Source: Clostridia bacterium
GTDB taxonomy: Bacteria; Bacillota; Clostridia; Christensenellales; Aristaeellaceae
Reading direction: 5' to 3'
DNA: 64,000 bases
Assembly: GCA_017448975.1 (NCBI GenBank)
Contig: JAFSKN010000029.1
Span: 20,555 to 84,554 of the forward strand
The position numbers and the translations under genes were made by a program. Positions within the stretch are counted from its first letter, which is position 1. Every line of letters begins with the position of its first letter. Below are positions 62 to 17,593 of this stretch, piece after piece. The notes below the pieces were generated by a model that saw nothing but the letters and a program-made list of their open reading frames with translations, ran no database searches and was not told the DNA's origin.

Positions 62-526
62 ATGGCGAAGTTAAAACAACAGATCAAAATCACTGCATTG
101 TATTGCAGGCTGAGCCGAGATGACGAATACAGCGGCGACAGCGTTTCGATCCAGACGCAGAAAACGCTGCTTGGACAGTTTTCTAAGGAACGGGGATTCA
201 CAAACTGCGAATACTTCGTGGATGACGGGTACTCAGGGACGAACTACAACCGCCCGGATTTCCAGCGGATGCTGAATCTGGTGGAGGATGGACAGGTCGG
301 GATCGTGATTGTCAAAGACCTTTCCCGGCTGGGCCGCGACTACCTGCAAACGGGATTCTACACGGAAGTCGTATTTCCCGAACACAACGTGCGCTTCATT
401 GCCATCAACGACAATGTGGATTCTGCGGCTGGAGACAACGAGTTTGCCCCGTTCAAAAATATCATCAATGAGATGCTTTCATTAAGAAGGGATCATTACA
501 TAGCAGCACCGGCAGAAAGAGTTTAG
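62..526 (+). pseudogene. Outer-element large serine recombinase, N-terminal part (interrupted)
   Basis: This is the resolvase catalytic domain of a Tn4451/TnpX-type large serine recombinase, the enzyme that excises and inserts integrative elements. The motif YCRLSRDD carries the expected nucleophile Ser18, followed by [15 protein letters not shown] and [17 protein letters not shown], all standard for the family. The family reading holds to Glu137 (470-472); the next 17 codons are unrelated and end at a TAG. The missing zinc-ribbon and coiled-coil part lies at 16328-17593 in the matching frame, so the gene was split by insertion of a 15.86-kb element. A TATAAT box at 12-17 and GGAAAGGACGG before the ATG suggest it was once expressed normally. 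The fragment could still give a truncated catalytic domain, but it lacks DNA-binding regions. Confidence 0.9.
467..492. other. Left attachment junction (attL) of the inner element
   Basis: AATGAG at 467-472 marks the chromosome/element joint. The element-side arm 477-491 is TTTCATTAAGAAGGG; its reverse complement closely resembles the right-end arm at 16302-16317, as expected of half-sites bound by one recombinase. Confidence 0.75.
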
Positions 527-531
527 GAGAT

Positions 532-583
532 AAAACTGACAATTTGACCGCTCTTGATCATGCGGACTCTTATTGTCAGTTTT
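532..583. terminator. Bidirectional terminator-like stem-loop
   Basis: AAAACTGACAAT (532-543) is perfectly repeated in inverted form at 572-583, with an inner CCGC/GCGG pair in the loop. T-runs flank it on both strands. It lies downstream of the leftward foldase gene and would end the cargo operon transcript before it reaches the broken recombinase. Confidence 0.6.
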
Positions 584-648
584 CTTTGTGTTTGCATCCA
601 TAATACGGTTCTCATTATCAGTCAGAATTGTTTTGAGCATTTCAGCGC

Positions 649-14679: not shown

Positions 14680-16293
14680 ATGACGCAAACGTATAACGCA
14701 GGCATCTATTGCCGCCTTTCCCGCGATGACGAGCGCACCGGGGAAAGCGTGTCGATAGAAAACCAGCGGGTATTGCTGACCCGCTATGTACAGGAACAGG
14801 GCTGGAACCTCATTCAAACCTATGTGGATGATGGCGTCAGCGGAACCACCTTCGACCGGCCCGGCCTGAACGCCATGATTTCCGACATTCGAGCCGGAAA
14901 GATCAATCTGGTAGTCGTGAAAGACCTGAGCCGCTTCGGGCGGGATTACATCGAAACCGGGAAATACATCGATGTGATTTTTCCTTCTCTCAACTGCCGG
15001 TTCATCGCGCTGAATGACGGCGTGGACACCCTTCATCACAACAATGAAATGCTCGCTATTTTCAAAAATGTGATGAACGATTTTTACGCGCGTGATACCA
15101 GCAGCAAGATCAAGGCAGTCAAGAAATCCACCTTCCTGGCAGGGAAATTCATTGGCGCTTATGCTCCCTATGGGTATATCAAAGATCCGAACGATCATCA
15201 TCACTTTGTGATTGACGAACCGGCAGCGGCAGTCGTTCGGAGAATCTTTGCTCTGAGATGCCAGGGAATAAGCTATCGGAGAATCGCAGGCATTCTGAAT
15301 GAAGAGAAGGTGCTCCCGCCCAGGGATTACTACTATCAGGCAATCGGAAAGCCGAACCCGTATCGCCAGAATCATGTGTGGAATGATGTGACAGTCAAAG
15401 TTCTTTTACGCAATGAAGCCTACATTGGCAACATGGTGCAGAACAAAACCGGTACGGTATCCTATAAGGATCATTCCCAAGTCAGCAAACCGGAAGAGGA
15501 TTGGATTCGCGTTTCCAATACCCATGAACCCATCATTGATATGGACACTTGGGAATTGGTTACGCAGATCGCCCGGCGAGGAGCCTTCACCCGCGTTCGG
15601 CCTTTCCGTGGCATCAACATGTTCGCGGGATTGCTGTTCTGTCTGGACTGCGGATTCGCACTGATTCATCGAGTAGAGAAACAGACTCGAAAGAATGGCA
15701 CTTATGTGGAATATGAATCCTATCTTTGCGGCTGCTACTCCAGGAGCGGAAAGACAGCTTGTTCTACGCACACGATATACCAGCGGCCACTCAAAGAAAT
15801 CATTTTGGCAGACATCCGCGCGAAAGCCGAACTGGTGTCAATCGACGAAAAGTCGGTAGTTCAGCGGCTTTCTGAGCGGATGCAGGCCCAATCCTCACAG
15901 GAAATCGCGGCAAACAAGAAAACCGTCAAGGCGCTGAATAAGCGCCTGACGGAGCTTGAAAAGCTGATCGCCGCCACCTATGAGGATAAGGTGAAAGGAC
16001 TCATTCCAGAATCCGTGTGTATTGAACTGCTGAACAAGTATCAGTCAGAGCGCAATGAGAAAGCAGCGCAACTGAAAGAACTGGAACAGCAGTTGGACAG
16101 CACACAGGCCGTGCAGGACGATGTGCAGAACTGGGCTGACATGATCCGTCAGTATCGGAACTTGGATACCCTTGACCGCGAAACACTTCTTCGCCTCATC
16201 GATAAAATCGAGGTAGGCGAAAAGAAGATCGTGGATGGGCACAAGGAGCAAGAAATCCGGATACACTATAAATTTGTAGGATTTATTCAATAA
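14680..16293 (+). CDS. Large serine recombinase of the inner element
   Basis: The 537-aa TnpX-like recombinase excises and integrates the inner element. The resolvase domain (1-150) has [14 protein letters not shown] with nucleophile Ser14, VDDGVSGTTFDRP and VVKDLSRFGRDYIETGKYID; the recombinase domain follows (GAYAPYGYIKD...), then a zinc ribbon (LLFCLDCGFA ... CGCYSRSGKTACSTH) and a coiled coil (about 385-480). GGGAGGATAAAGAAAG precedes the ATG. It ends 35 bp from the right junction, as expected for an enzyme beside its attachment site. At the place equivalent to the insertion target it reads NDFYARD rather than NEWYARD (15076-15096). Confidence 0.95.
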   Translation: MTQTYNAGIYCRLSRDDERTGESVSIENQRVLLTRYVQEQGWNLIQTYVDDGVSGTTFDRPGLNAMISDIRAGKINLVVVKDLSRFGRDYIETGKYIDVIFPSLNCRFIALNDGVDTLHHNNEMLAIFKNVMNDFYARDTSSKIKAVKKSTFLAGKFIGAYAPYGYIKDPNDHHHFVIDEPAAAVVRRIFALRCQGISYRRIAGILNEEKVLPPRDYYYQAIGKPNPYRQNHVWNDVTVKVLLRNEAYIGNMVQNKTGTVSYKDHSQVSKPEEDWIRVSNTHEPIIDMDTWELVTQIARRGAFTRVRPFRGINMFAGLLFCLDCGFALIHRVEKQTRKNGTYVEYESYLCGCYSRSGKTACSTHTIYQRPLKEIILADIRAKAELVSIDEKSVVQRLSERMQAQSSQEIAANKKTVKALNKRLTELEKLIAATYEDKVKGLIPESVCIELLNKYQSERNEKAAQLKELEQQLDSTQAVQDDVQNWADMIRQYRNLDTLDRETLLRLIDKIEVGEKKIVDGHKEQEIRIHYKFVGFIQ

Positions 16294-16301
16294 AACATTT
16301 A

Positions 16302-16330
16302 CCCTTCTTTATCGAAAACTCTCTAACGAG
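16302..16330. other. Right attachment junction (attR) of the inner element
   Basis: AACGAG at 16325-16330 is the right copy of the AAYGAG overlap. The element-side arm CCCTTCTTTATCGAAA (16302-16317) resembles, in inverted orientation, the left-end arm at 477-491, with one single-base gap and two mismatches. Confidence 0.75.
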
Positions 16331-17593
16331 TGGTACGCACGCGATTCAAGCCGGAAGGTCCGGTCAGCCCTTCAGGCCAAGGCACGGAATGGGGAATACA
16401 CCGGCAGCTATCCACCCTTCGGCTACTGCAAAGACCCCATGGACCGGCACCACCTGATCCCAAGCGAATACGCTCCTGCTGTAAAGCGGATGTTCCAAAT
16501 GGCGTTGGAAGGACAAACCTGCTATGCCATCGCTAGGAAACTGGAAAAGGAACAGATTCCAACGCCAAGAGCCAGTCTCATGCAGGCGTATGGGAAATAC
16601 GAAACAGCAGAACGTGCGAAGTATCCGAACAAATGGGATCAGACGACCGTTCGCGGCATCCTTCGCAATCCCATTTACCTGGGCAAACTGATCTGGCAGA
16701 AAACGCAGACGAAATCCTTCAAGGATAAGCGCATTGTAGCAAGGCCGCAGGAAGAATGGATCACAGTAGAGGGCACCCATGAAGCGCTGGTGGATGAGGC
16801 TACCTTCTATACCGTTCAGCAGCGTATCCAAGTCAAGCAGCCCGCGCCTACCGCGAATCCAGAGAACAAGCTCCGGGGCCTGCTGTTCTGCGGAGGCTGC
16901 AACAGCCGCATGGAGTTTTCCTCCGCCACAGGCAGGAAAATCTGCGGACACTACTGCTGCGGCAAACATCGGCACTATGGAGGCAAGGAATGCTCCACTC
17001 ACTATATTTCTGTGAAGCAGATCAATGCTGTACTTCTGGAGGACATTCAGCGTCACGCAAGCCTTGCTGCGGAAGATAAGGAAAAGTACATTGCGTATCT
17101 GATGCAGCTTTCTGAAAAGGAATGGATCGGCGAGAAAGCGTCCTATACGAAGGAAGCGGAGCAGTGCCAGCGGCGCATCTCCGAACTCGACATTCTGCTG
17201 AAACGGCTGTACGAGGACAATGTGTTCGGACGCATCTCCGACGAACGCTTTGCCAGCATGTCAGCTGATTACGAGGCCGAATCCAGGAAGTTGAAAGACA
17301 GGTACAATGAAATTCAAACCCTGCTTGCCAACTATGCCCGGCAAAGCCGTGACGCCAAGGAATTTGCCGCTCTGGTGGAGCAGTACACGAACATCACCGA
17401 ACTCACGGAAGAACTTCTTCACACTTTGATCGAAAAGGTGATCGTGCATGAGAAAGAAGTCATTGACGGTGAAACGGTGATGCGGATCGACATCTACTAC
17501 CGCTTTATCGGCAAGGTTGGCAGCGAGGACGATGCAATCTTGATTACACCGAAAACGCGCCGGGTCAGCATCCCGCTGGCTCCCGGCGCGTGA
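16328..17593 (+). pseudogene. Outer-element serine recombinase, C-terminal part (detached)
   Basis: From 16328 the frame reads EWYARDSSRKVRSALQAKAR and continues through SYPPFGYCKDP, the recombinase domain, a zinc ribbon (GLLFCGGCNSRMEF ... CGHYCCGKHRHYGGKECSTH) and a coiled coil to a TGA at 17593. It lacks the catalytic Ser domain, which is found at 62-472. Joined at GAG (470-472 = 16328-16330) the two give an uninterrupted 557-codon recombinase of normal family length. A shorter product could start at the internal ATG 16439 but would be inactive. The 3' end contains a perfect 9-bp inverted repeat, CGCGCCGGG (17556-17564) and its complement (17582-17590). The outer element's right end should lie between here and 17640. 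Confidence 0.9.

Follow-up and report, generated by a model that had tools for sequence, protein, structure and literature searches.

The window analyzed here is a stretch of 64,000 nucleotides from a Clostridia bacterium (G000:C53:20555–84554), which belongs to a 3.08-Mb draft genome of 80 contigs. Between positions 62 and 17593 it contains a gene for a large serine recombinase (LSR) that is split in two by a 15,858-bp element carrying an LSR and a relaxase of its own. The open reading frame (ORF) at 62–526 matches the Pfam domain Resolvase (PF00239, 1.4e-19), and the frame at 16331–17593 matches Recombinase (PF07508), Zn_ribbon_recom (PF13408) and DUF4368 (PF14287). All four domains are present in this outer LSR, spread over two parts of 137 and 420 residues that add up to 557. 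The ORF of the cut N-terminal part enters the left end of the element and meets a stop at 526. The inner LSR has all four domains in one protein and is of the TnpX/TndX (DUF4368) type. The features of the split are as follows.

62–468, + strand: catalytic (N-terminal) portion of the outer LSR; host sequence as far as the AA core (PF00239; 97.8% to the uncut relative L079; junction)
467–468, no strand: left copy of the 2-bp core AA (uncut relatives read AAC GAG; same core in relatives)
469–16326, no strand: inner integrated element, 15,858 bp (junction comparison)
469–505, no strand: left end of the inner element (attP arm, approximate length; resembles an end of L004, by reading)
14680–16293, + strand: inner LSR, 537 residues, with Resolvase, Recombinase, Zn ribbon and DUF4368 domains (proposed as the element's integrase)
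16294–16326, no strand: right end (attP arm) of the inner element (junction comparison)
16325–16326, no strand: right copy of the core AA (junction comparison with uncut relatives)
16327–17593, + strand: C-terminal (DNA-binding) part of the outer LSR (PF07508, PF13408, PF14287; 92.6% to the uncut relative L079)

We searched related genomes for the uninterrupted gene, a check suggested by an earlier note made from the letters of this DNA. The C-terminal part occurs at E <= 1e-110 in six of 300 genomes of the family, the own genome counted, and four family relatives are uncut at the site. A single 557-codon gene is found in G248 (L079; 97.8% to the N-terminal and 92.6% to the C-terminal window piece), G180 (L081; 99.3 and 87.4%) and G268 (L082; 87.6 and 78.8%). 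The copy in G264:C399 (L085/L089; 97.1 and 86.2%) is uncut across the site, with one internal TAA, and its gene runs off the contig end. AAC GAG stands at the site in all four uncut copies. Since the uncut homologues are continuous across the site, both pieces derive from a single gene and a single subfamily. The earlier note had joined the fragments 62–472 and 16328–17593 in frame to 557 codons around a 15.86-kb element with its own serine recombinase, and it had named two conflicting outcomes, relatives with naturally two ORFs and fragments from different subfamilies. Its joined frame and its element both hold up: three relatives have a single 557-codon gene that matches both fragments, both parts align to the same uncut homologues, and the 15,858-bp element encodes an LSR with all four domains.

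A different account holds that the outer recombinase is by nature encoded in two genes, that it was already defunct, or that the join is an artefact of assembly or binning. The draft state of the assembly speaks for an artefact, as do two further 3′ parts of the outer gene in the own genome, which lie at the starts of contigs C3 and C10. Against this account, the uncut relatives read through the site, and G264:C149 (L088) has a second insertion at the window's site, where a C-terminal part 89% identical to the window's is immediately preceded by a related element end and the final 27 codons (85%) of an inner-like LSR. The same configuration is also found in Blautia sp. An81, Pseudoflavonifractor sp. 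60 and Acutalibacter sp. 1XD8-33, which their record titles present as isolates, and in a single-contig genome (G702). We therefore hold it to be extremely unlikely that the split is an artefact or a natural pair of genes. In L088 (1–6400), the DNA further upstream has no match to the window element, which may reflect later rearrangement or replacement.

A second exact empty site is provided by an uncut LSR gene on the Pusillibacter faecalis plasmid pMM59_01, compared with the parts cut by the 5,819-bp element L004 of Blautia sp. An81. The plasmid gene matches the L004 parts at 97.5% over 400 nt and 96.4% over 1200 nt, and the two matches meet at 4392/4393 with no gap or overlap. An uncut homologue of the host gene at L011 was sought in 13 genomes, which gave the cut copy only.

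In the window, the right junction reads AAC GAG and the left junction AAT GAG, compared with AAC GAG in the uncut relatives. The right-hand AAC (16325–16327) is host DNA, and the T (469) of the left-hand AAT is element DNA. Because this T comes from the element and the uncut copies have AAC, the crossover lies within the AA of the Asn codon in N-E-W-Y-A-R-D, at 467–468 and 16325–16326. The boundary thus moves from the GAG at which the earlier note had placed the join: GAG 470–472 is part of the element end, the left end starting with TGAG, and the core is AA. A fusion protein of the element's right end with the host C-terminal part (in frame, ...LSNE|WYARD) was considered and dropped, as there is an upstream in-frame stop in the window and no conserved start was seen.

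The same cut recurs in other LSR genes. A scan of genome contigs with the inner LSR gave 53 loci. In the closer group, most loci show the LSR gene, a shared end of ~30 bp (L007-type) and then the C-terminal part of another LSR, which begins at the codons N|[ED][WFYM]YA[RK]D. With one script for the clade of the inner LSR and for the control, we counted LSR halves lying at a motif boundary <=260 nt past the gene. Such a half, from another LSR gene, directly follows the recombinase in 26 of 37 clade loci and in 0 of 31 other LSR genes; 39 clade loci had been examined, two of them with too little flank. The subgroup counts are 17/24 for the closer clade to which the inner LSR itself belongs and 9/13 for the L024/L115 tandem type. 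The integration in the window had earlier been described as a single event; the integration is borne out, but it is a habit of the clade and not a one-off. Both parts of the cut LSR were found by search at nine loci (window, L004, L011, L014, L016, L017, L022, L037 and L092), and the N-terminal part at L009 and both parts at L013 come from reading short flanks.

The count of 26/37 and 0/31 leaves out the fragments L048, L051, L052 and L054, the partial or distant loci L041, L043, L045–L047, L049, L050, L053, L055, L056 and L061–L070, and copies of counted loci (L001–L003, L078, L080, L083–L088, L089–L091, L093–L110, L114, L116–L118 and L121–L123). L088, the second insertion at the window's site, likewise stands outside the count, and 13 LSRs lacking the motif were tested and not used as queries. 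L047, L049, L050, L063–L067 and L069 were considered as lone C-terminal parts and rejected; they read as distant LSRs whose N-terminal part is too weak for the search.

The L007-type right end occurs at 18 distinct sites. Fifteen are LSR genes, 12 by a searched C-terminal part, L016 and L020 by the N-terminal part and L013 by reading short flanks; L012, L018 and L023 are not. At L020 the N-terminal part lies on the other side of the element, and the C-terminal part is lost. When the 18 genomes behind these loci were searched, the end was found 17 times in 13 genomes, at the sites already known, and a reversed-pattern control gave zero matches in the same genomes. The interrupted C-terminal parts of 15 loci are mostly 24–64% identical pairwise (exceptions are L014/L022 with 84%, L019/L022 with 71% and one pair with no match; the L019 and L022 rows are short). 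Thus, different genes were cut at one codon, and a single inherited insertion does not account for them. The inserted L007-type LSRs are alike, with three other copies 93–94% identical to that of L007 and short tree branches. Element sizes run from about 4 kb to ~68 kb. Each of three genomes has 20–25 LSR matches, so targets are plentiful. The inserted element at L011:957–9673 carries what reads like a type III restriction–modification set (methylase and helicase-type restriction subunit).

A tree of 43 LSRs places the LSR-hitting rows in one clade, with several long branches. The window falls with L004, L005, L092 and seventeen L007-type rows in a 21-row clade (support 100/98), which includes the non-hitting L006, L012 and L018. 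The clade widens to 25 rows (support 99/93) with L021, L057 and the L024/L057b type; L022, L023, L025 and L124–L135 are outside the tree. The L057 type (L115) has a tandem pair of LSRs. In G702, whose genome is one contig of 3.13 Mb, the N-terminal part of the cut gene ends at L115:15098 and the C-terminal part starts at L122:6314, 67,783 bp apart and in the same Asn codon. This ~68-kb element resembles an integrative and conjugative element (ICE) in its gene content, which includes a relaxase, a TraG-type ATPase, an NlpC/P60 protein, an ArdC-like protein and a topoisomerase. Twelve IMG/VR loci carry a tandem-type LSR. An LSR N-terminal part lies directly behind it in L124, L126, L128, L129, L131, L133 and L135; L132 has a short motif before the contig end, L127 is too short, and L125, L130 and L134 have none.

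Members of the clade are also cut themselves. At L024 and L128 the cut gene is an L007-type LSR (95.5 and 94.0% to the N-terminal part of L007), and in L024:10001–16569 and L128:5718–5966 the break in this LSR falls in the Asn codon, a tandem-type LSR being adjacent. An L007-type left end at L024 lies behind another cut LSR N-terminal part, 4 kb away, an arrangement that suggests nesting three levels deep. The C-terminal parts of both cut genes were found neither in the L024 locus nor in 20.7 kb more of the contig. A different break is seen at L026:10001–11620, which is 90% like the LSR of L007 over residues 1–60 and then 52–68% like another LSR. The partner switch lies near the DDGxSG codons (about residue 50), and L051, L052 and L054 break off near there; these breaks may reflect a second hot spot or domain swapping.

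Regarding the site itself, the aligned sequences show the AA core, GA just behind it and then TA[CT]GC..[AG][AG]GA[CT] (column counts from 17 right-hand rows, the L092 row being shifted by one base). At right junctions the wobble position of the Asn codon varies between C and T with the host, and at left junctions it is T, which places the crossover before this position. The site codons encode residues conserved in LSRs; thus, LSR sites alone cannot separate protein conservation from a preference of the enzyme. At L012 the site lies in a non-LSR gene with look-alike DNA, TTTTGAA|ATAAAGGTATGCGAAGGATAT. At L016 a host Phe codon (TTC) replaces the Asn codon (AA[CT]), AA occupies the same position on the opposite strand, and the element is inverted. 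Both sites fit recognition at the DNA level, with the AA core probably setting the orientation. The LSR gene lies at the opposite element end in L004, L092 and L025, as judged by reading the end sequences.

We conclude, with a probability of roughly 0.88, that this is an LSR lineage whose preferred attachment site (attB) is formed by the codons that link the catalytic domain to the DNA-binding part in other LSR genes. The sequences themselves show the cut, the core, the uncut relatives, the recurrence in different LSR genes and the restriction to one clade. The same integration could also carry a preference that arose as a by-product of a relaxed, multi-targeting DUF4368 LSR, the motif happening to lie in LSR genes with no selection involved. 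The inner LSR does have DUF4368, a mark of the multi-targeting clade (PMC10083194); non-LSR sites exist, and the L012 site resembles the LSR codons in its DNA and is not an LSR gene. This is opposed by the 26/37 against 0/31 and by the use of the same codon by sublineages with enzymes ~41–68% alike and with differing ends, which would be expected if selection kept the preference. We consider a pure by-product rather unlikely.

Several observations weigh against an LSR-directed preference. L006, L012, L018, L021, L023, L125, L130 and L134 (8/37) showed no LSR half, and L013, L020 and L132 score 'none' by the script, their LSR sites appearing only through the other flank or through a short motif by eye. 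From its reading, we take the L125 site to resemble a phage terminase gene. The element ends at L006 and L021 are not well defined. The same 5.3-kb element (96.5–99.6% identical) sits in an LSR gene at L017 and elsewhere at L012 and L023, and the left junction of L024 is TA, compared with AA in the others. The clade border (the 25-row node) was set after the flanks of L024 and L115 had been seen, with L119 and L120, the adjacent outer branches, put in the control, and the control rows are the loci at hand, several of them close kin. The window's own assembly is an 80-contig draft. Random samples show the clade to be rare: it is found in one of 300 family genomes (the own; best four candidates per genome scored) and in four of 391 class genomes at E <= 1e-125, the own included; the L007-type right end is found in none of 396 order genomes, the window's own end differing from the pattern. 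The targeting of LSR genes is a preference, strong and not absolute.

For the preferred reading we propose the following mechanism. The inner LSR would recombine the attP of a circular element with an attB in an LSR gene, crossing over at the second Asn codon, whose AA forms the 2-bp core, within the motif N-x-x-N|[ED]-[WFYM]-[YF]-A-[RK]-D. The host LSR would become a catalytic stub, which meets a stop soon in the element, and a headless C-terminal part; from LSR architecture, an LSR in which the catalytic and DNA-binding parts are no longer linked would be inactive. Unless the inner element departs or a second copy assists, the host element could then no longer move by its own enzyme. These bacteria have many LSR genes, which are presumably dispensable to the cell and are themselves mobile, and which would thus offer a plentiful, harmless and travelling landing site. 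Enzyme activity, excision, host immobilization and the selective reason are what we infer from the arrangement. On balance we favor, with some reserve, a broader account in which a Clostridia LSR lineage of small mobilizable and ICE-size elements has evolved to use the LSR domain-junction codons as its attachment site. It would be a hyperparasite that disarms mobile elements by cutting their mobility gene, and its victims could not easily escape because these codons are under protein-level constraint. Such insertions may stack, as at L024, where a member's own LSR is cut beside a further cut LSR.

The inner element might also act as a regulated switch, leaving under set conditions and so controlling outer mobility. 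Gene-intervening elements of this kind, skin and gin, are known in sporulation genes. The clean junctions, the inner LSR with all its domains and the good conservation of both outer parts with respect to the uncut relatives are in line with a switch. Several relatives, in contrast, are decayed: the C-terminal part is lost at L020, the LSR genes at L022 and L023 are in pieces and L006 has a stop. A switch thus seems improbable. The switch is compatible with the preferred reading of an LSR-directed attachment site, and the by-product with its physical steps, so their likelihoods need not sum to one with it.

The outer element can be followed through nine copies of the 3′ end of its recombinase, the window's included, whose flanks diverge just past the shared end.

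17594–17633, no strand: right end of the outer element, approximate (the flanks of the nine copies diverge about here)

These differing right flanks indicate that the outer element was mobile. Together with the exact junctions and the uncut relatives, they agree with the earlier proposal that the inner element integrated site-specifically into the recombinase gene of a resident mobile element. The host element would now be locked in place, and excision would restore its mobility. Another LSR copy, for example the gene of the C3 or C10 parts, might act in trans on the outer element. To the left of the window, C53:1–21500 (L001, L002) is by position the outer element or its neighborhood. This region holds a defence-like cluster that comprises a PDC-M62A/B pair (which also matches PtuA/PtuB more weakly), a giant WD40-repeat protein, a SIR2-like protein, a STAND/TPR-type protein and an actin-like (ParM-type) gene.

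Apart from its LSR, the inner element carries the following genes.

649–1950, − strand: PPIC-type peptidyl-prolyl isomerase, cargo (family searches)
1957–7743, − strand: giant ORF, 1928 residues (true start probably internal), with a sorting-like C-terminal tail (by reading), cargo
7502–8434, − strand: sortase, cargo (Pfam cut-off reached; class B model under the NCBIfam cut-off)
8821–10167, + strand: IS1380-family transposase within the inner element (family searches)
10945–11778, − strand: helix–turn–helix (Cro/C1-type) regulator (family search)
12806–14344, + strand: MobA/MobL (MobQ-like) relaxase (PF03389, 1.6e-79)

The giant ORF gave no match when searched against Pfam and NCBIfam. The relaxase scores 191.9 bits with the MobQ model, compared with a cut-off of 200. 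Its reading frame continues without a stop ahead of the TTG start listed at 12896, so the start position is approximate, and a frameshift considered in this gene was dropped for the same reason. Among the eight inner-element ORFs scanned, a subset of its ORFs, none encodes a mating-pore protein. Its own integrase gene and its defined ends are features of an integrative mobilizable element (IME), and with its relaxase it is probably best explained as an integrative, mobilizable-type element.

Integrases are usually thought to choose safe host genes or, for some IMEs, the conjugation genes of a helper. A lineage that targets integrase genes would make mobile-element conflict directly testable, as insertion should freeze the host element and departure should free it. 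For a multi-targeting type of LSR, its sites make up a natural collection of attB sequences whose core is defined. Annotations of a 'truncated recombinase' may be insertion scars and not decay, and the lineage may, as speculation, help to account for the fixed position of some defence islands. The core dinucleotide of Tn4451 is GA; the AA core found here places the window's element outside Tn4451.

Nested serine-integrase elements in ICE genes are already known, as are DUF4368 LSRs as multi-targeting enzymes. Our literature search, which did not extend to subscription papers, preprints and supplementary files, found no report of elements targeting recombinase genes, and the accessible text of PMC5704250 and PMC6907783 names no recombinase-gene target. 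Like the multi-targeting DUF4368 LSR clade, which is TndX-like (PMC10083194), the present lineage combines this domain architecture with many target gene clusters and a 2-bp core. In target diversity it agrees with multi-targeting as used by Durrant et al., the C-terminal parts being mostly 24–64% identical and non-LSR sites being present, but unlike in that clade most targets are homologous, namely LSR genes (PMC10083194). Because the target-gene Pfam enrichment in that paper was restricted to LSRs that do not belong to the multi-targeting clade, targeting of LSR genes could not have emerged from it (PMC10083194).

In C. difficile, Tn6104–Tn6106 are nested in Tn6103, in ORFs 1743 and 1776 (PMC3158075). 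Tn4451/TnpX and Tn6104–Tn6106 share with our case a TnpX-type LSR, mobilizable elements nested in a conjugative element and a 2-bp site; unlike here, no insertion into a recombinase gene is reported in the accessible text (PMC3158075). IME_Rho_tet, with 116 of 256 matched sites in MAFF2 ORFs, is similarly a gut Firmicutes IME whose LSR prefers one protein family, but its target is the small MAFF2 ORF and not an LSR, and it carries tetracycline resistance, which was not seen here (PMC12904643). Nested integration is also shared with the Tn1806-like ICEs, for which nesting in snf2 of ICESa2603 ICEs was shown by conjugation; those elements differ in targeting snf2, hsdM and another methyltransferase gene (PMC12942858).

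A further comparison is with the streptococcal IMEs, whose serine integrases target traG, maff2 and snf2 of Tn5252-type ICEs (12 of 16 such IMEs; PMC5357655). In both cases, a small relaxase-bearing element with a serine integrase interrupts a conserved gene that belongs to another mobile element (PMC5357655). The lineage described here falls outside the Coluzzi type of IME, defined by targets in traG, maff2 or snf2 of Tn5252 ICEs, with LSR genes in 26/37 loci. The streptococcal elements use non-recombinase genes of one ICE superfamily, whereas here the cut lies at a single codon of the recombinase gene in many different elements (PMC5357655). Unlike the insertions of the streptococcal IMEs, those of this lineage would be expected to affect the excision and the integration of the host element.

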